Shown in pieces: positions 43,993 to 53,434 of a stretch of DNA of 64,000 nt. Positions within the stretch are counted from its first letter, which is position 1. Each line of letters opens with the position of its first letter. A program made the position numbers and the translations under genes. The notes under the pieces were generated by a model. The model was not told where the DNA came from, searched no databases, and was given only the letters and a program-made list of their open reading frames with translations. The DNA is from Serratia entomophila (GTDB taxonomy: Bacteria; Pseudomonadota; Gammaproteobacteria; Enterobacterales; Enterobacteriaceae), in NCBI RefSeq assembly GCF_021462285.1, contig NZ_CP082787.1, positions 3,038,001 through 3,102,000 of the forward strand, given 5' to 3'.

Positions 43993-44015
43993 GGGTAATT
44001 GAATATTCATTACCC
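43993..44015. promoter_or_regulatory. Inverted repeat before benA
   Basis: Arms GGGTAAT/ATTACCC around TGAATATTC, in the 98-bp catA-benA spacer, which is the longest gap inside the operon. It could be a regulator site for a separate ben promoter or an RNA structure that shifts expression between cat and ben. Confidence 0.45.
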
Positions 44016-44052
44016 GCTCATTAACCCTGTCTCTTTATACGAGGTCATTACT

Positions 44053-45429
44053 ATGAACTCATTAGTGAACAATGCATCCGCCGAATTAAAAAAGAAAATA
44101 AATAATGCTTTAATTATTGATAAAGAAAATGGAATTTATCAATGCAATCGCGGCATTTTTACCGACGAGGCGTTATTTGAACTGGAAATGAAAGCAATTT
44201 TTGAAGGCAACTGGGTATATCTGGCGCATGAAAGCCAAATCGCCGCGCCCGGCGATTATTACACGCTCACCCTTGGCCGCCAGCCGGTCATTATCACCCG
44301 CGATAAAGACATGGGGCTGCACGCCATGATCAACAGCTGCTCGCACCGTGGCGCAATGTTGGCCAGCCGCAAGTCCGGCAATAAAAGCACCTTTACCTGC
44401 CCGTTCCACGGCTGGACCTTCAACAACGCCGGCAACCTGTTGAAGGCCAAGGATGAAAAGACCGGCGCCTACCCGCCGTGTTTCAAACAGGCCGGCTCGC
44501 ACGATCTCAAACAGCTGCCACGTTTTGAATCTTACCGCGGTTTTCTGTTCGGCAGCCTGAGCGACGAGGTGCTGCCGCTGACGGACTATCTGGGCGAGAC
44601 GCGGCATATTCTCGATCTGATTGTCGATCAGGCCGAAGACGGGCTGGAGGTGCTGCGCGGCTCATCGTCCTACACCTTCGACGGCAACTGGAAACTGCAG
44701 ATAGAGAACGGCGCGGACGGTTATCACGTCAGCGTGGTGCACTGGAACTACGTCTCGACTATGGCGCATCGGGATGCCCAGACCGGCACCCAAACCATGG
44801 ACGCCAACTGCTGGTCATCAAAAAACGATGGCGGCGCCTACGGCTTCAAGAATGGCCATCTGCTGCTGTGGACCCGCGTGCTGAACCCGGAGTCTCGCCC
44901 TATTTACCGCCACTTCAGCCGCCTGAACGACGCCTTCGGCCCGCAGCGCGCCGATCTGATGGTTAACCAGACTCGCAACCTGTGCCTCTACCCTAATCTG
45001 TACATTATGGATCAGCTTTCCAGCCAGCTGCGCGTCGTTCGCCCCCTTTCCGTCAATAAAACCGAAGTCACGGTGTTCTGCTTTGCGCCGAAGGGCGAAA
45101 GCGCCGCCGATCGCGCCTTGCGCATTCGCCAGTATGAAGATTTCTTCAACGTCAGCGGCATGGGAACGCCGGACGATCTGGAAGAGTTTCGCGCCTGCCA
45201 GCTGGGCTTCAACGCGGGCAACATGCCCTGGAGCGATCTCAGCCGCGGCGCCACCCGCTGGCTCGAGGGACAGGCGGACGACAACGCCAAAGCGCTGGGG
45301 ATCTTGCCCGAAATGACCGGCCCGCGCCCGGAAGACGAAGCCTTGTATTTCAGCCAGCATCATCACTGGCAAACCCTCCTGCTGCGCAAGCTGGATCTTC
45401 AACAACGCAACGATGAGGTGGCGCAATGA
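44053..45429 (+). CDS. benA: Benzoate 1,2-dioxygenase large subunit
   Basis: A 458-aa Rieske oxygenase alpha subunit. The Rieske ligands are Cys96, His98, Cys116 and His119 (CSHRG ... CPFHGW), and the mononuclear iron site lies in ENGADGYHVSVVHW. With BenB it dihydroxylates benzoate to the cis-diol acid, using electrons from BenC. ATG 44053 has a GAGG Shine-Dalgarno; the frame from 43999 is spacer. The last codons overlap the benB start (ATGA). Confidence 0.95.
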   Translation: MNSLVNNASAELKKKINNALIIDKENGIYQCNRGIFTDEALFELEMKAIFEGNWVYLAHESQIAAPGDYYTLTLGRQPVIITRDKDMGLHAMINSCSHRGAMLASRKSGNKSTFTCPFHGWTFNNAGNLLKAKDEKTGAYPPCFKQAGSHDLKQLPRFESYRGFLFGSLSDEVLPLTDYLGETRHILDLIVDQAEDGLEVLRGSSSYTFDGNWKLQIENGADGYHVSVVHWNYVSTMAHRDAQTGTQTMDANCWSSKNDGGAYGFKNGHLLLWTRVLNPESRPIYRHFSRLNDAFGPQRADLMVNQTRNLCLYPNLYIMDQLSSQLRVVRPLSVNKTEVTVFCFAPKGESAADRALRIRQYEDFFNVSGMGTPDDLEEFRACQLGFNAGNMPWSDLSRGATRWLEGQADDNAKALGILPEMTGPRPEDEALYFSQHHHWQTLLLRKLDLQQRNDEVAQ

Positions 45430-45923
45430 ACAGGCTCAACCTGCAACAGCAAGTGGAACAATTCCTGTATCGCGAAGCGCGCCTGCTGGATGACCGGCAA
45501 TGGGATGAATGGCTCGCCTGCTATCACCCGCAGGTCGAATACTGGATGCCTGCCTGGGCCGACGACGATCGGCAGACCACGGATCCCCACAGCGAGATTT
45601 CGCTGATTTATTACGCCAATCGCGAAGGGCTGGAGGACCGCGTTTACCGCATCAAAACCGAACGTTCGGCCGCCAGCAGCATGCCGGAACCGCGCACCGT
45701 CCATCTGGTCAGCAACGTGGAAATCCTGTCGGCCACGGAGGGCCAGGCCGAGGTGAACTACCACTGGGCCACCTTCTATCACCGCTATAACCACACGGAT
45801 ACCTACTTCGGCTCGACCCGCCTGCTGCTGGAACACGCGGGCGATGAACTGCGAATTAAGCGCAAGAAAATTCGTCTGGATAATGACTACATCAATCATG
45901 TTATTGATATTTATCATCTTTAA
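45426..45923 (+). CDS. benB: Benzoate 1,2-dioxygenase small subunit
   Basis: A 165-aa ring-hydroxylating dioxygenase beta subunit (FLYREARLLDDRQWDEWLACYHPQVEYWMP; hydrophobic beta-sheet C-terminus ending with IRLDNDYINHVIDIYHL). It is structural in the alpha3beta3 enzyme. It overlaps benA by 4 bp and precedes benC by 14 bp. Confidence 0.94.
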   Translation: MNRLNLQQQVEQFLYREARLLDDRQWDEWLACYHPQVEYWMPAWADDDRQTTDPHSEISLIYYANREGLEDRVYRIKTERSAASSMPEPRTVHLVSNVEILSATEGQAEVNYHWATFYHRYNHTDTYFGSTRLLLEHAGDELRIKRKKIRLDNDYINHVIDIYHL

Positions 45924-45937
45924 ATCGTGAGGTGAGC

Positions 45938-46954
45938 ATGTCTTTTACCGTCGCTCTTAATTTTGAAGACGGCGTCAGCCGCTTTATTCAGTGTAACCCG
46001 AATGAAAAGGTGCTCGACGCCGCCTACCGGCAAAGGATCAACCTGCCGATGGACTGTTCGGACGGCGTGTGCGGCACCTGCAAATGCCGCTGCGAACAGG
46101 GGGAATATCAGCTGGGTGAGGACTATCTGGACGAAGCGCTGTCCGAACAGGAAGCGGCGCAGCGGCTGGTGTTGACCTGCCAGATGGTGCCGTCTTCGGA
46201 CTGCGTCATCGAGGTGCCCATCGCCTCGACGCTATGTAAAACCGGCAGCGAGGAGTTTGCCGCCACCGTCACGTCGGCCACCACGCTGTCGGACAGCGCC
46301 ATCGAGTTCTGTCTGACGCTGGACGACGAACGCGGCATCGCCTTCCTGCCTGGCCAGTACGTCAATATCGCGGTGCCCGGCAGCGATGCCAGCCGCGCCT
46401 ATTCCTTCAGTTCGCTGCCCGGCAGCCGGCAAATCTCTTTTCTGCTGCGCAACGTGCCCGGCGGCATGATGAGCGGCTATCTGACCGATCGGGCCCGGCC
46501 GGGCGATGCCATCCGCCTGCGTGGCCCGCAGGGCAGCTTCTACCTGCGCACGCCGGTGCGGCCGATGCTGTTCCTGGCCGGCGGCACCGGGCTGGCGCCG
46601 TTCCTTTCCATGCTGGAACAGCTGGCCGCCGACGCCAGCCCGCAGCCGGTGCACCTGATTTACGGCGTCACCCATGACCACGATCTGGTCAAGCTGGAAC
46701 AGCTGGAAAGCTATCGCCGGCGCCTGCCGCACTTCAGTTACCTGACCTGCGTGGCCAGCGAAGCGTCGCAGTCGCCGCACAAGGGCTACGTCACGCAGCA
46801 CCTCGACGAAAGTTTGCTCAACGGCGGCGATCTGGACGTGTACCTGTGCGGGCCGCCGCCGATGGTGGAAGCGGTGCTCGGCGATTTCCAGCGCCGCGCC
46901 TTTACCCCCGCCAGCTTCCACTACGAGAAGTTCGCCCCCAGCCAGGCCAGTTAA
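45938..46954 (+). CDS. benC: Benzoate dioxygenase electron-transfer reductase
   Basis: A 338-aa fusion of plant-type ferredoxin and ferredoxin-NADP-reductase-like domains. The [2Fe-2S] ligands are Cys40, Cys45, Cys48 and Cys81. FAD binding is shown by RAYSFSS and NAD binding by LAGGTGLAPFLSM and CGPPPMVEAV. It passes electrons from NADH to BenAB. ATG 45938, 6 bp after the possible GTG start, is best placed relative to GAGGTGAG. Confidence 0.95.
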   Translation: MSFTVALNFEDGVSRFIQCNPNEKVLDAAYRQRINLPMDCSDGVCGTCKCRCEQGEYQLGEDYLDEALSEQEAAQRLVLTCQMVPSSDCVIEVPIASTLCKTGSEEFAATVTSATTLSDSAIEFCLTLDDERGIAFLPGQYVNIAVPGSDASRAYSFSSLPGSRQISFLLRNVPGGMMSGYLTDRARPGDAIRLRGPQGSFYLRTPVRPMLFLAGGTGLAPFLSMLEQLAADASPQPVHLIYGVTHDHDLVKLEQLESYRRRLPHFSYLTCVASEASQSPHKGYVTQHLDESLLNGGDLDVYLCGPPPMVEAVLGDFQRRAFTPASFHYEKFAPSQAS

Positions 46955-46965
46955 AGGAGACAACC

Positions 46966-47748
46966 ATGGATAAACCCCGTTTCAGCGGCAAGGTGATGGC
47001 GATCACCGGCGCCGCTCAGGGCATCGGCAAAGCCGTCGCCGAGCGCGCGGCGCGGGAAGGCGCCAGATTGGCGCTGCTCGACCGCGCGCCCTACCTCACC
47101 GAGGTGGCGGCGGCGCTAAAAGAACGCGGCGTTGAGGTCATCGCGCTGCAGGCGGACCTGGAAAACTGGGAAGCGACCCGCGACGCGCTGAACCAGGTGC
47201 AACAACACTTCGGCCGGCTGGATATTTTGGTGAACAACGTTGGCGGCACCATCTGGGCCCGGCCATTTGCCGAGTACGACGCACAGCAGATTGAAGCGGA
47301 AATTCGACGCTCGCTGTTCCCGACGCTGTGGGGTTGCCGCGCGGCGCTGCCGCATATGCTGGCGCAGGGGAACGGAGTGATTGTCAACGTCTCTTCCGTC
47401 GCCACCCGCGGCGTGAACCGCGTGCCCTATTCGGCAGCCAAGGGCGGCGTCAACGCCCTGACCCAATCGCTGGCGTTTGAGTACGCCGGCGCCGGCATCC
47501 GCATCAACGCCACCGCGCCGGGGGGCACCGAGGCGCCGCCGCGTCTGACGCCGCGCAACAACGCAACGCCAACGCCGCAGGAAGAGAGATGGTATCAGCA
47601 GGTGGTCAATCAAACCCTGGACAGTAGCCTGATGCACCGCTACGGCAGCGTCGGCGAACAGGCGGACGCCATCTTGTTCCTCGCCAGCGACCAGGCCAGC
47701 TACATCAACGGCACCGTGCTGCCGGTAGCCGGCGGCGATCTGGGATAA
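46966..47748 (+). CDS. benD: Benzoate cis-diol dehydrogenase
   Basis: A 260-aa SDR enzyme that oxidises the benzoate cis-dihydrodiol and releases CO2 to give catechol. Visible are TGAAQGIGKA, NNVGGTIW, the NVSSVATRG Ser and the YSAAK Tyr-Lys pair. ATG 46966 follows AGGAGACAACC. It is the last gene of the operon, ending at a strong hairpin. No benzoate transporter (BenK/BenE) follows. Confidence 0.94.
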   Translation: MDKPRFSGKVMAITGAAQGIGKAVAERAAREGARLALLDRAPYLTEVAAALKERGVEVIALQADLENWEATRDALNQVQQHFGRLDILVNNVGGTIWARPFAEYDAQQIEAEIRRSLFPTLWGCRAALPHMLAQGNGVIVNVSSVATRGVNRVPYSAAKGGVNALTQSLAFEYAGAGIRINATAPGGTEAPPRLTPRNNATPTPQEERWYQQVVNQTLDSSLMHRYGSVGEQADAILFLASDQASYINGTVLPVAGGDLG

Positions 47749-47912: not shown

Positions 47913-48092
47913 ATGTACAACTTCTCACGCTATCAGGCAAAAGAACTGGCGCTGGCTTACATGAGCGGCAAAAAACACGATCTGTCGCCGCAGGAATTTC
48001 TGCAGCAGTTGAAAAGTAGCGAAAGATCCTTCGACCATCTGCTGAAACACGGCAGCGAGCTGCCGCGCGAAGTGCTGGTGAAAAGCTTCTAA
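47913..48092 (+). CDS. Small conserved-looking protein, 59 aa
   Basis: A charged protein without membrane helix (MYNFSRYQAKELALAYMSGK at the start, then SPQEFLQQLKSSERSFDHLLKHG). It has a GAGGA Shine-Dalgarno and a plausible promoter (TACAAT near 47873). The longer frame from 47781 reads through the terminator region and is unlikely. I do not recognise the family; a short helical protein is expected. Confidence 0.7.
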   Translation: MYNFSRYQAKELALAYMSGKKHDLSPQEFLQQLKSSERSFDHLLKHGSELPREVLVKSF

Positions 48093-48311: not shown

Positions 48312-48389
48312 TTTCGCCCCCAGAGGCGAAATTGCTAAAAATTCGCATCATGAGGCGAATATTTGACTTATTCGCTCTTAGGTGCGAAT
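48312..48389. promoter_or_regulatory. Three tandem palindromes, 29-bp spacing
   Basis: Three copies of a palindrome with arms TTCGC-N8-GCGAA, extended by one A/T base on each side, at 48312-48331, 48341-48360 and 48370-48389. Starts are exactly 29 bp apart, near three helical turns, so a bound protein would be on nearly the same face each time. A possible -35 (TTGACT, 48363) lies between copies two and three. They precede the SatD-like gene by 36 bp and are probably its operators. Confidence 0.8.
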
Positions 48390-48424
48390 TTATCCTTCTC
48401 CTTTCCGACAAAACAGGCAAACGC

Positions 48425-49021
48425 ATGCGGACGCACATCAGCGTAATCAGCGGCGATCTGGTCAATTCTCGCCGTCTCGATACGGCTAATTACATCAGCG
48501 GGCTGCAGGGCCTGCTGAAACGGCTGCAACAGACCAACCAGATACAGCGCTTCGAGATTTTTCGCGGCGACGCCTTTCAAGCGGAGACCAAACAGGAAGA
48601 CGGCCTGCTGCTGGCGGTATATATCCGCATCGCGCTGAAAGCCATGGATGCGGCAGCGTGGGACGCGCGCATCGCCGTTGGCTTGGGCAGCAAGCAAACC
48701 CAGGCCGCCGGCTATGGCAGCGCCTTCGTCAACTCCGGCGCCGCGCTGGACGCCATGACGAAAAACTGCAGGCTGGCTCTGAAAACCGACAACGATCGGA
48801 CAAACGCCATTGTCAGCGATTTGCTGCCAATGTTAGATCATGTCATCGGCCGCCTGTCTCAGGCTGAGGCGCGCATCGTGCAGGCGCGAATATTCGCCGG
48901 CAGCAACGCGGAGGTCGCGCTGCGGTTGCAAAAAGCCGCCTCCACCGTATCCGCCACGCTAAAGCGTGCGGCCTACGAGGAAATGATGCGGTTCATTCAT
49001 GCGATTAACGGGATCACCTGA
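48425..49021 (+). CDS. SatD-like protein with C-terminal HTH
   Basis: A 198-aa protein. The N-terminal part resembles the SatD family (HISVISGDLVNSRRLD; FEIFRGDAFQAE). The C-terminal part (about residues 140-190, LSQAEARIVQARIFAGSNAEVALRLQKAASTVSATLKRA) looks like a sigma-region-4-type helix-turn-helix. The ATG at 48425 begins at the conserved domain; the frame upstream covers the operator array. It is 2 bp before a DUF3307 membrane-protein gene, a pairing seen for SatD genes in other bacteria. I infer an autoregulated DNA-binding protein; the biological role is unknown. Confidence 0.6.
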   Translation: MRTHISVISGDLVNSRRLDTANYISGLQGLLKRLQQTNQIQRFEIFRGDAFQAETKQEDGLLLAVYIRIALKAMDAAAWDARIAVGLGSKQTQAAGYGSAFVNSGAALDAMTKNCRLALKTDNDRTNAIVSDLLPMLDHVIGRLSQAEARIVQARIFAGSNAEVALRLQKAASTVSATLKRAAYEEMMRFIHAINGIT

Positions 49022-49023
49022 AT

Positions 49024-49797
49024 ATGGATTTGACCTATGCGCCACTGCTGACCTGGCTGCTGCTCGTGCATTTGCTGGCGGATTTCCCGCTGCAGCCTCT
49101 CAGTTGGGTGGTTGATAAAGCCCAGCATCGCGCGCGCTCGCGCTTTTTGCTGCTGCACGCCCTGTTGCACGGCGTGCTGGCCGCCTGGGTGGTGGCCGGT
49201 TTCGGGCTTCTGCACGGCGGGCTATCCTCCGCGGACGTGTTGATCAGCCTGCTGACAATCGCAGTCAGCCATTACCTGATTGACCTGCTGAAGGTTACGT
49301 TGATGACCGGCCTCAGCCAGGCCGGCAGCTTCCTGCTCGATCAGGGCCTGCACCTGGCGGTCATTATCCTGCTGTGGCTGTACCTTACGCCTAACGCCGG
49401 CGCCCTGCTCGCCGCGCTGTGGCGGCAACTGGGCAGCCTGCAAACCGGCCTGGTGCTGACGGCCTACAGCCTGATTTATCTGCCGATGGGTATTTTGATT
49501 GGCCAACTGCTGGCGCGCTGGACGCCGCAAATGCCGGCTTCGGCCAAAGCCGATAACGACTCGCTGCTGCGCGCGGGCAAACAGATTGGCTACCTGGAAA
49601 GAACGCTGATCCTGACCTTTGTGCTGACCGGCCAGATACCGGCAATTGGCTTCTTGCTGGCCGCCAAGTCGATTTTCCGCTTCGGCGATCTGCGGCAGAG
49701 TGATGACAAGATGCGTACCGAGTACGTGCTGCTCGGTACGCTGTTTTCCTTTACGTTGACCATCATGCTCGGTCTGCTGGTCAAAAAACTGTTATAA
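49024..49797 (+). CDS. DUF3307 membrane protein
   Basis: A 257-aa membrane protein with about six hydrophobic helices. The N-terminal half has the DUF3307 pattern (LLLVHLLADFPLQP ... LLHALLHGVLAAWV ... SHYLIDLLKV, and LLDQGLHLAVI), with conserved His and Asp residues inside the membrane region. It is co-transcribed with the SatD-like gene. No function can be assigned; the conserved polar residues suggest metal binding or transport. Confidence 0.75.
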   Translation: MDLTYAPLLTWLLLVHLLADFPLQPLSWVVDKAQHRARSRFLLLHALLHGVLAAWVVAGFGLLHGGLSSADVLISLLTIAVSHYLIDLLKVTLMTGLSQAGSFLLDQGLHLAVIILLWLYLTPNAGALLAALWRQLGSLQTGLVLTAYSLIYLPMGILIGQLLARWTPQMPASAKADNDSLLRAGKQIGYLERTLILTFVLTGQIPAIGFLLAAKSIFRFGDLRQSDDKMRTEYVLLGTLFSFTLTIMLGLLVKKLL

Positions 49798-49826: not shown

Positions 49827-52526
49827 TCACAGCCACTCGCCGAAGCGGCGGATATAAAAGCGCTTCATCATTTGCGCCACGACGCAGTAGCTGATCAGCG
49901 TGCCGGCCAACCACGGGAAGTATTCCCACGGCAGCGGCTGCAACCCCACCAACGCGCCGAGCGGCGAGAACGGAATATAAATACCCAACGCCATCACCAA
50001 CCCGGTGGTCAGCAGCACCGGAAGCGCCGCCGTGCTTTGAATGAACGGGATTTTCTGGGTGCGCAGCATATGCACCACCAGCGTTTGCGACAATAGCCCT
50101 TCAATAAACCAGCCGGACTGGAACAGCGCCTGATGCTCAACGCTGTTGGCGGCGAAAACAAACCACATCAGCGCATAGGTGGTGATGTCGAATATCGACG
50201 AGGTTGGGCCGATCCACAGCATAAAGCGGCCGATGTTTTTCGAATCCCACTTGCGCGGCTTGCGCAGGAACTCTTTGTCCATCTTGTCCCACGGCAGCGA
50301 AAGCTGGGAGATGTCGTACATCAGGTTCTGGATCAACAGATGGATAGCCAACATCGGCAGAAACGGAATGAATGCGCTGGCCACCAGCACCGAGAACACG
50401 TTGCCGAAGTTGGAGCTGGCGGTCATGTTCAGGTACTTGATGATATTGCCGAAGGTTTCACGCCCTTTAATCACCCCCTCTTCCAACACCATCAGGTTCT
50501 TTTCCAACAGGATGATATCCGCCGATTCCTTGGCGATATCGGTACCGGTATCCACCGAGATGCCGACGTCGGCGTCGCGCAACGCCGGCGCATCGTTGAT
50601 GCCGTCGCCGAGGAACCCCACCGTATGGCCGTTGGCCTGCAGCATTTTCAGCACCCGCGATTTCTGCAGCGGCGTCAGCTTGGTGAATACCGTGCGTTGC
50701 TCCACCTCGCGCGCCAGCTCTTCATCACTCATCCGCTCAATCTGCAGGCCGGAAAGCGGCTCCCCCGGCTCCAACCCGACATCGCGACAAATCTTGCAGG
50801 TGATCACCGGGTTGTCGCCGGTCAGCACTTTCACCGCGACGCCGTTTTCCTGCAGCGCGGCGATCGCCTGCTGCGCGCTTTCCTTCGGCGGATCAAGGAA
50901 GGTCAATAACCCTTGAACCACCATATCGCGCTCGTCGGCGACGCTCAGCGGCGCTGCCTGCTGCTGCTCGCCCAGTTCGCGGGTGGCCAGCACCAACACG
51001 CGGAAACCGTCCTCGTTATACTCGCGCGCCAGCGCCTGCAACGCCGCGCGCCGCGCATCATCCAACGGCAACGTTTGCTGCCCTTCACGCACGTGGGTGG
51101 CGATTTCCAGCATCTCTTCGACCGCCCCCTTGCAGATCAGCAGCTGTTGGCGGCTCTCGTCCGCCACCACGATCGACAAGCGGCGGCGCACGAAGTCGAA
51201 CGGCAGCTCGTCCACCTTGCTGTAACGCCCCAGCGCCTCGACGCCCGGCTTGCCGCGCCCGAAGCGGATCACCGCCTGGTCCATCAGGTTCTTCATGCCG
51301 CTCTGGTGGAAACTGTTCAGCCAGGCCAGGTGCAGCACTTCGCTATCCTTAACGCCGCTGACGTTGATGTGATGCTCGAGAATGATGCGATCCTGGGTCA
51401 GGGTGCCGGTTTTATCCGTGCAAAGTACATCCATGGCGCCGAAGTTCTGAATGGCGTTCAACCGCTTGACCACCACTTTGCGGCGCGACATGGCGATAGC
51501 GCCCTTCGCCAGGTTGGAGCTGACAATCATCGGCAGCATTTCGGGCGTCAGGCCGACCGCGACGGCCAGCGCGAACAGCGCCGCCTCGCTCCAGTCGCCC
51601 TTGGTGAAGCCGTTGATCAACAGCACCACCGGCACCATCACCAGCATAAAGCGGATCAGCAACCAGCTGACGCTGTTCACCCCGCGATCGAAGGCGGTTT
51701 GCGCCCGGGAACCGACGATGGATTTGGCCAGCGAACCGAAATAGGTGCGCCCGCCGGTGGCCACGACCACCGCCGTGGCGGTGCCGCTGGCGACGTTGGT
51801 GCCCATCAGGCAGATATTCGACAGCTCCAACAGCGCGCTCTCGCTGGAAACGCTGTCGTCGCTCGACTTTTGGGCGACGTTGCCCATCGCATCGTACTTC
51901 TCGATGGGAATGGCTTCGCCGGTTAAAATCGCCTGGCTGATAAACAGATCGCGCGAGGCGATCAGCCGGATGTCTGCCGGCACCATGTCGCCGGCGGAGA
52001 GCTGAATGATGTCCCCCGGCACCAGCTCGCGGATGGGCACCTCCAGCGTCAGCGGATGTGCGCTGTAGCTGCTGCGGCGCAAAACCGTGGCGGTGGTGCG
52101 CACCATGGATTTCAACGCTTCGGCCGCTTTGTTGGTGCGATACTCCTGCCAGAAACGCAGCAGGCCGCTCAACGACACCATAATCATGATAATGACGACG
52201 CCGGTGAGTTCAGTTTCTTCACCGCGCTGGGCCGGCAGCCAGTAGTCGGTAAAGAAACTGATCGCAGCCAGCACCATCAGTACGAAGATAAATGGGTTGT
52301 TGAACGCTTTGATTAACTGGATCAACGCATGCGGCGCCTTGTCATGGGCCACCTGGTTGGCGCCGAACTGCTCCAGCCTTTCGCCGGCATCGTCCTGGGT
52401 TAATCCGTTGCGATTGCATTTTAAATTCGCCAGCGTTTGAGCGATGCTGTTTTTCGCCTCTTCCGCGATGGCGTAAGGTGCCTCGCCTTTATCACGGCGG
52501 CGTACTTTTTCATTAATTTGAGTCAT
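49827..52526 (-). CDS. mgtA: Mg2+-importing P-type ATPase MgtA
   Basis: An 899-aa P3-type ATPase, almost the length of E. coli MgtA (898). Visible are the phosphorylation site DKTGTLT, LTGE in the actuator domain, the GDGINDAPALRDADVGISVDTGTDIAKESADIILLEKNL hinge (two blocks), and about ten membrane helices. It pumps Mg2+ into the cell when Mg2+ is scarce. On the minus strand it follows mgtC after 209 bp, with a leader ORF in the gap. The cytoplasmic N-terminus is KR-rich (EKVRRRDKGEAPYA). Confidence 0.95.
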   Translation of the reverse strand: MTQINEKVRRRDKGEAPYAIAEEAKNSIAQTLANLKCNRNGLTQDDAGERLEQFGANQVAHDKAPHALIQLIKAFNNPFIFVLMVLAAISFFTDYWLPAQRGEETELTGVVIIMIMVSLSGLLRFWQEYRTNKAAEALKSMVRTTATVLRRSSYSAHPLTLEVPIRELVPGDIIQLSAGDMVPADIRLIASRDLFISQAILTGEAIPIEKYDAMGNVAQKSSDDSVSSESALLELSNICLMGTNVASGTATAVVVATGGRTYFGSLAKSIVGSRAQTAFDRGVNSVSWLLIRFMLVMVPVVLLINGFTKGDWSEAALFALAVAVGLTPEMLPMIVSSNLAKGAIAMSRRKVVVKRLNAIQNFGAMDVLCTDKTGTLTQDRIILEHHINVSGVKDSEVLHLAWLNSFHQSGMKNLMDQAVIRFGRGKPGVEALGRYSKVDELPFDFVRRRLSIVVADESRQQLLICKGAVEEMLEIATHVREGQQTLPLDDARRAALQALAREYNEDGFRVLVLATRELGEQQQAAPLSVADERDMVVQGLLTFLDPPKESAQQAIAALQENGVAVKVLTGDNPVITCKICRDVGLEPGEPLSGLQIERMSDEELAREVEQRTVFTKLTPLQKSRVLKMLQANGHTVGFLGDGINDAPALRDADVGISVDTGTDIAKESADIILLEKNLMVLEEGVIKGRETFGNIIKYLNMTASSNFGNVFSVLVASAFIPFLPMLAIHLLIQNLMYDISQLSLPWDKMDKEFLRKPRKWDSKNIGRFMLWIGPTSSIFDITTYALMWFVFAANSVEHQALFQSGWFIEGLLSQTLVVHMLRTQKIPFIQSTAALPVLLTTGLVMALGIYIPFSPLGALVGLQPLPWEYFPWLAGTLISYCVVAQMMKRFYIRRFGEWL

Positions 52527-52610
52527 AACGCTATTCTCTTATTTTATTTCACGCACAGGGATACCCCGCCCGATTAACGGGTGAATATGCATAAAATGGA
52601 ATTTATTTAA

Positions 52611-52682
52611 TTAGCGCAGCCAAACTGAATGGTTATCCTGTCGGCTACGCAGAAATAATCGCCCCCTGGGGTCGTCGTCCAT
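52611..52682 (-). CDS. Leader peptide before mgtA (MgtL-like)
   Basis: A 23-aa ORF with a near-perfect Shine-Dalgarno (TAAGGAGG, 4 bases before ATG). The peptide begins MDDDPRGRLFLRSR and ends with HSVWLR. An acidic and proline-containing N-terminus followed by basic residues is the plan of MgtL, whose EPDP sequence destabilises translating ribosomes when Mg2+ is low. It lies 84 bases before mgtA. A role in Mg2+-sensing control of mgtA is inferred from this likeness and position. Confidence 0.7.
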   Translation of the reverse strand: MDDDPRGRLFLRSRQDNHSVWLR

Positions 52683-52735
52683 AACGCCTCCTTAATATCT
52701 TATGTATTTCACATTATTCAGGTTGATGTATTTAA

Positions 52736-53434
52736 TCAGACCGGCAATTCAGATGCGACGCGCCAACGCACGGCACTCACGCTTTTTTCCAGGCTGACGC
52801 GACAGACAATACCTTCTATTTCTTTTTGCGCAGCCGGCGTCGCGGTTATTTCCGCACAAACCTCCAGCTGACCGGGGCTGGCGATATCGGCGCTGCGCAG
52901 CGATTGCAAACGCAGCGCCACGCCGTTCAGCGCCTGTAATATCAAGGTGCGCACCAATATTTCGTCCTGTTCGCCGCAGGTAACCTGAATGCGGTAACAC
53001 AACTCCAGATCGGTCGCCTGCTGCTGCGGCTGCAGGTTGATACGCTGAGCGGCTTCACGCAGCAGAATATTGGCGCACAGGATCACCAGCGTAGCGATTA
53101 CCGCGTCCCAATACTGCCCCAGCCCGCACAACACGCCGATCGCCGCAGAGCACCACAGCGTGGCGGCAGTGTTCAAGCCGCGGATATTCAACCCCTCACG
53201 CATGATAACCCCGGCGCCGAGAAAACCGATGCCGGAAACAATCTGGGCGGCCACCCGCCCGGCGCTGGAAGGATCGGTGGACATCGAGCTGAGAATAAAT
53301 ACCGCCGCGCCGGTCGCCACCAGGGCATTGGTGCGCAGACCGGCCATACGCTGACGCCATTGCCGCTCGGCGCCAATAACCGCGCCCAGGCTCATCGCCA
53401 GTAATAAATTTAAAACAAAAGGAGTCATAGCCAT
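52736..53434 (-). CDS. mgtC: MgtC-family membrane protein
   Basis: A 232-aa MgtC/SapB protein: four to five N-terminal helices with MSLGAVIGAERQWRQRMAGLRTNALVATGAA and GIGFLGAGVIMREGLNIRGLNTAATLWCSAAIGVLCG, then a C-terminal ACT-like cytoplasmic domain from about residue 145. In Salmonella MgtC inhibits the F1Fo ATP synthase and supports growth at low Mg2+. ATG 53434 is used because GGGGAAAG precedes it closely. It is upstream of mgtA on the same strand, so both may belong to one Mg2+-starvation unit. Confidence 0.93.
   Translation of the reverse strand: MAMTPFVLNLLLAMSLGAVIGAERQWRQRMAGLRTNALVATGAAVFILSSMSTDPSSAGRVAAQIVSGIGFLGAGVIMREGLNIRGLNTAATLWCSAAIGVLCGLGQYWDAVIATLVILCANILLREAAQRINLQPQQQATDLELCYRIQVTCGEQDEILVRTLILQALNGVALRLQSLRSADIASPGQLEVCAEITATPAAQKEIEGIVCRVSLEKSVSAVRWRVASELPV

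Follow-up and report, generated by a model that had tools for sequence, protein, structure and literature searches.

We found that a SatD-like protein of Serratia entomophila very probably binds an array of three palindromes ahead of its own gene and regulates the operon that it shares with a DUF3307 membrane partner. The array lies in a 64-kb stretch of contig NZ_CP082787.1 (positions 3,038,001 to 3,102,000; this whole stretch is the window, and positions are counted from its first letter). On the sequence evidence, we give binding of this array by SatD, with regulation of the operon to which satD belongs, a probability of about 0.85. Such autoregulation is strongly supported by the spacing of the sites across the family, by covariation between their letters and residues of the protein, and by the co-occurrence of paired sites and satD within the genus. 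SatD is named as the binder mainly because the half-site letters follow residues 172–174 of the protein.

Results

An operator array ahead of the satD-like gene

Three exact TTCGC-N8-GCGAA palindromes, at 48313, 48342 and 48371, are separated by exactly 29 bp from start to start. The array, its predicted promoter and the two genes behind it are as follows.

48313–48330, no strand: operator 1, TTCGCCCCCAGAGGCGAA, an exact palindrome
48342–48359, no strand: operator 2, TTCGCATCATGAGGCGAA, an exact palindrome 29 bp from operator 1
48363–48368, plus strand: predicted −35 hexamer, TTGACT, read from the sequence between operators 2 and 3
48371–48388, no strand: operator 3, TTCGCTCTTAGGTGCGAA, an exact palindrome occupying the predicted −35/−10 spacer
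48386–48391, plus strand: putative weak −10 hexamer, GAATTT, read from the sequence at a 17-bp spacing from the −35
48425–49021, plus strand: SatD-like gene, 198 amino acids (aa), with a cyclase-like palm domain (about 1–120), a linker helix and a C-terminal helix-turn-helix (HTH; recognition helix about 172–181)
49024–49797, plus strand: DUF3307 gene, 257 aa, beginning 2 bp past the satD-like stop and encoding a predicted polytopic membrane protein

The first-pass annotation, made from the letters of the window, had described three such palindromes 29 bp apart and had placed them over the promoter. Both descriptions were borne out: a −35-like TTGACT separates sites 2 and 3, and the predicted spacer behind it is taken up by site 3. 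The motif is exact here but was drawn slightly too narrowly, since position 5 is C or T in relatives. No other exact match was found anywhere in the window. The 5.15-Mb genome contains 28 exact matches to the 18-bp pattern, compared with 14 to a backward control pattern. When the flanking A/T letters were added (ATTCGY-N8-RCGAAT), operators 2 and 3 were the only places in the genome with zero mismatches. Paired relaxed sites (TTCG-N10-CGAA, 8–14 bases apart) had no matches in the source genome other than the two pairs of this array, 1+2 and 2+3.

Paired sites accompany satD in the genus

The near-clade sample comprised 33 loci, of which 31 are near (the window copy included) and two, L034 and L035, are distant. 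TTCG-N10-CGAA recurred at exactly 29 bp in all 31 near loci, with three sites in 30 of them and two in L031; site 1 carries one mismatch in L036 and L037. The motif was not found in the two distant loci. When 30 genomes of the genus were searched for paired sites with a free gap of 8–14 bases, pairs were present in 26/26 genomes with satD and in 0/4 without it, and every match sat just ahead of satD with a gap of 11 bases. Because the pairs occur only before satD, the array seems from these sequences to be dedicated to the satD operon. One copy, L033, has a satD-like frame disrupted close to its beginning and retains an intact operator array.

The period is kept across the family

Genome searches covered 392 genomes at the level of the family, 369 of the class, 394 of the order and 398 of the phylum, in overlapping sets, with a match in 12, 5, 60 and 22, respectively. 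The class-level search was run with the Pfam model alone; four order-level matches out of 60 (G853, G991, G1018 and G1053) were weak or broken and were left out. Two plasmid records and three viral-collection contigs were also included, for a total of 108 usable loci (106 distinct). Repeat genomes were dropped (L016–L022, L024, L060, L076, L078, L122, L125, L126, L128, L131 and L137), as were the own-genome pattern loci L001–L015 and L138, a weak match to the HTH only. We then scanned 200 bp upstream for two similar palindromes of width 16–20 at any period of 19–45 bp, and significance was judged against 60 dinucleotide-preserving shuffles per locus and 40 per control stretch.

In 101/106 loci the scan favoured a period of 28 (48 loci) or 29 (53 loci); conservation of the spacing, which the first-pass annotation had proposed as a check, was thus upheld. 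In 81 of the 106 loci the array exceeded all 60 shuffles, every one at 28 (35 loci) or 29 (46 loci). Among control stretches, a best period of 28–29 was seen in 7/104 upstream and 6/105 downstream, and the periods were widely spread. When the 31 near loci were removed, 28 or 29 was still best in 70/75, and 50 exceeded all shuffles. Four of seven loci from another class of the phylum had arrays exceeding all shuffles. The same was true of a plasmid copy from Bacteroidota, L094, which has two sites, one of them imperfect. The array of a further locus, L097, appears to have been enlarged by duplication of a two-site unit, with two site types alternating in four copies.

Half-site letters follow the recognition helix

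The period is near-invariant and the letters change. By lineage, the half-sites include TTCGY, ATACGC, GTAACY, TTAGCC, ATAGCC, GCAAGC, GCAAAC, TCAAGC, ACAGCC and ACAACC. In TTAGCC lineages, pairs were found in 7/8 genomes, only ahead of satD and in some cases with extra copies. We could register 87 of the 106 loci, the remaining 19 lacking a 28/29 array reached by at most 1/60 shuffles; these 87 arrays hold three sites in 57 cases, two in 25 and four in 5. After removal of two loci of odd length (L035 and L062), 85 loci were retained, with 27 representatives below 60% identity (median pairwise identity 27%).

The information that each of 185 SatD columns carries on the five outer half-site letters was compared with 300 permutations. 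The three strongest columns were 172, 174 and 173 (z=7.4, 6.6 and 5.8), three adjacent residues that open the predicted recognition helix (172–181). The largest maximum in the permutations was 4.8, and the 95% point was 4.0. Arg at residue 172 goes with G (15/17), Gln with A (6/6) and other residues with T (4/4); at residue 173, Gln goes with C (11/11) and any other residue with T (15/16). Arg–G and Gln–A are familiar contacts. The rule was weaker yet kept when 13 representatives below 38% identity were used (each with Fisher P=0.0047). These values come from columns chosen after a scan and can be inflated by shared ancestry.

Repression, activation and other readings of the array

In the near loci, the hexamer 8 bp ahead of the last site is TTGACA (29/31) or TTGACT (2/31). 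L065 and L068, with ATACG half-sites, also have a site filling the spacer of a TTGACA promoter. Because site 3 takes up the core promoter spacer, binding would be expected to repress the satD operon. As a variant of autoregulation by SatD, the protein could act as an activator, with polymerase recruited through the upstream sites and the promoter-proximal site coming into play only when the protein is abundant, in an on/off loop. This is in keeping with two of the three sites lying upstream of the predicted −35 and with the faint likeness of the HTH to sigma-70 region 4. However, site 3 sits inside the predicted spacer in all 31 near loci, and the arrangement in L065 and L068 points the same way, so that we consider activation unlikely.

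The protein that binds an operator is often the product of a gene elsewhere, and the SatD-like protein of the window falls below the cut-offs of the Pfam HTH models; its HTH might therefore serve another job while a separate regulator occupies the array. The restriction of genus pairs to satD-bearing genomes (26/26 against 0/4) and the tracking of half-site letters by residues 172–174 above all other columns make this quite improbable. Even less can be said for the repeats acting as hairpins in a leader RNA, by attenuation or through messenger stability. Palindromes are able to fold, and in L127, L132 and L134 the array ends only 2–4 bases ahead of the start codon, but sites 1 and 2 of the near loci lie upstream of the predicted −35 and should not be transcribed from that promoter, and the letters covary with residues in a DNA-binding helix. 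Finally, a chance or low-complexity repeat, which the 28 single exact sites and the two backward-pair matches in the source genome might have suggested, is counted as refuted by the family-wide period and by the pair with an identical 11-base gap in all 26 gene-bearing genus genomes.

Several observations weigh against binding and autoregulation by SatD. Some control stretches also exceeded all 40 shuffles (3/104 upstream and 4/105 downstream, two of them at 29), and 25/106 loci failed to exceed all 60. Seven loci did no better than their shuffles, 35–60 of 60 of which reached them (L056, L057, L058, L063, L119, L133 and L136), and loci of one genus are not independent. The pair pattern, run backward as a control, likewise gave two matches in the source genome (G000), and it gave one in G321 and none in the 28 other genus genomes. 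The placement of the promoter differs among lineages. A spacing of 28–29 bp, about 2.7 helical turns, puts adjacent sites on different faces of the DNA, and contact between dimers is not obvious. As for the covariation, the two odd-length loci, L035 and L062, were excluded from the test, and the residue–base rule is broken by 2/27 representatives, L083 and L094, of which L094 has an uncertain site register that differs between analyses. Columns 148 and 136, outside the recognition helix, reach z=4.8 and 4.7, and column 69 of the N-domain reaches 4.2. A whole-region distance test did not set the HTH above the linker.

The SatD-like protein and its membrane partner

The ATG at 48425 was favoured as the start codon on the lengths of the 36 best relatives, 30 of which have 197–199 aa; the database entry P0001, of 229 aa, fits a TTG start at 48332, within the array. 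Against PF16264 (SatD family) the window protein scored 18.9 bits (E=0.0012), under the Pfam gathering cut-off of 29 bits, and it is therefore called SatD-like; a relative, P0089, reaches 31.2 bits, above the cut-off. The HTH helices were placed by a structure model at 146–156, 161–168 and 172–181, and the best Pfam HTH match is a sub-threshold one to sigma-70 region 4 (E=0.0033), which together support the C-terminal HTH of the first-pass annotation.

The N-domain resembles nucleotide cyclases, with a palm fold, both by structure model and by profile. D11 is kept in 105/106 and D49 in 106/106 loci; both align with Asp positions of the cyclase Ma1120, and we take them to be metal-binding aspartates. 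A point against the cyclase-like reading is that the class III Asn/Arg pair is not conserved (Asn at position 103 in 41/106 and Arg at 107 in 1/106, by an inferred correspondence of positions). The GG(D/E)EF motif is not present in the SatD-like protein, the motif there being RGD-x-FQ, and weak GGDEF_2 matches were found in 3/18 SatD N-domains (best E=0.013). The modelled cyclase-like fold and the two kept aspartates suggest a nucleotide ligand or product, which narrows what had earlier been left as a system of unknown purpose.

The DUF3307 partner noted earlier is clear: 2 bp separate its gene from the satD-like stop codon, and the protein matches PF11750 with 88.5 bits (E=4.6e-25; gathering cut-off 23 bits). 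Its structure model is all-helical, with a predicted local distance difference test (pLDDT) score of 91.7, and the protein is probably a polytopic membrane protein. Over 63 sequences H16, D20, H45, H83, D87, D106 and H110 are invariant, a His/Asp set that may resemble a metal site, and the C-terminal half is conserved too. No match was found among the solved folds or sequences searched. A DUF3307-like gene lies directly behind satD in 107/108 loci, a count that includes the repeat loci L060 and L137; the exception is L090, where the stretch ends. Elsewhere in Serratia, P0170 joins DUF3307 with a major facilitator superfamily transporter domain (PF07690) in one protein. The pair also occurs on plasmids of Segatella copri (L094) and Vibrio lentus (L095), in both with a gene for an AAA family ATPase less than about 1 kb upstream.

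Discussion

The SatD-like protein is probably a dedicated, nucleotide-responsive autoregulator that controls itself and its membrane partner. As a one-component transcription regulator of its own two-gene operon, it would use its C-terminal HTH to bind, as dimers, the three 18-bp palindromes, whose period is 29 bp here and 28 or 29 bp in the rest of the family. Binding at site 3, in the core promoter spacer, would repress satD and the downstream DUF3307 gene. A nucleotide signal, bound or made, would alter the grip of SatD on DNA so that the operon rises, and DUF3307 would be the membrane output. Because the spacing is fixed, neighbouring dimers may touch, spiralling round the DNA at about 2.7 helical turns.

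The first-pass annotation had read the array as cooperative and tightly autoregulated. That reading was borne out in part: autoregulation is strongly supported by the kept spacing (101/106), the letters tracking helix residues and the genus co-occurrence, whereas cooperativity is conjectured from the constancy of the spacing. We infer the dimers, their contact, repression over activation (from promoter overlap), and a nucleotide ligand with DUF3307 as effector (from fold and gene pairing). The controlling signal is probably a nucleotide, because the palm fold retains both presumed metal-binding aspartates. Tentatively, and with more doubt than belief, SatD could be an enzyme as well as the repressor of its own operon, making or sensing, by way of an intact cyclase-like site, a nucleotide second messenger whose state sets its grip on the 28–29-bp array, with the messenger or the released protein controlling DUF3307.

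If this is true, the pair would be a widespread and undescribed two-gene nucleotide signalling unit. An obscure gene pair, here traced to two phyla and no fewer than three bacterial classes, becomes a testable unit with predicted operators, a predicted recognition code (172–174) and a predicted ligand class. The near-invariant period with changing letters offers a natural experiment, cleaner than most, in the joint change of a regulator and its sites. Should the cyclase-like site prove active, the two genes would make up a new nucleotide signalling pair.

Genes around the pair

Behind the pair, on the opposite strand (49827–53434), lie genes for an MgtA-like P-type ATPase and an MgtC-family protein. 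The mgtA gene adjoins the pair in 37/37 near loci (30 distinct genomes), and no match was found in 20 distant loci. Upstream, at 47913–48092, is a small gene of 59 aa that is weakly YdiH-like (E=0.074); it is present in 24/37 near loci at 79–96% identity, and the stretch available for the others does not show it. Further upstream (43999–47748) is an apparent aromatic ring-hydroxylating dioxygenase operon, with large and small subunits, a reductase and a short-chain dehydrogenase/reductase (SDR) family dehydrogenase, judged by eye from the translations.

Comparison with known systems

The two genes correspond to the SatD family (PF16264) and DUF3307 (PF11750), and NCBI names the relatives of this same gene pair SatD family protein and DUF3307 domain-containing protein. 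The SatD name comes from a streptococcal operon. A shallow look at the literature found no description of the molecular function of the pair. An annotation paper ascribes acid resistance to the SatD family (PMC10326533), and for DUF3307 the open-access PMC literature searched yielded only an entry in a phage gene table. Within open-access papers, the scope of this look, nothing was found joining SatD with a nucleotide cyclase, or the pair with operator palindromes.

Class III nucleotidyl cyclases such as Ma1120 share the palm fold and two GD-type aspartate motifs. By comparison, the cyclase-like domain of SatD is fused directly to a small HTH and does not have the conserved Asn/Arg pair at the expected positions. 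Mycobacterial cyclase–HTH proteins such as Rv0386 are longer, multidomain proteins. A term search of part of PMC2447327 found no HTH passage.

CdaR/PucR regulators with a GGDEF-like domain likewise carry a palm-type domain beside a DNA-binding domain. The top Foldseek row was Rv2242, which we take to belong to this group (E=7.1e-4), but the superposition is poor (template modelling (TM) score 0.29, root-mean-square deviation 14.5). SatD differs in that it keeps the two aspartates and has no Pfam match to the PucR-type HTH at E up to 1.

PADLOC-DB of 2023, which is older than the 2025 Panoptes papers, gave no relevant match to a defence system. Panoptes optSE (mCpol plus a membrane effector) likewise pairs a palm-fold protein with a membrane protein in a unit of two genes, and OptS was among the Foldseek matches (9pd0, E=7.0e-3), a resemblance of fold only. 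OptE is described as a transmembrane effector with a nucleotide-binding soluble domain (PMC12657218). In contrast to Panoptes, DUF3307 is without a known fold match and SatD carries an HTH.
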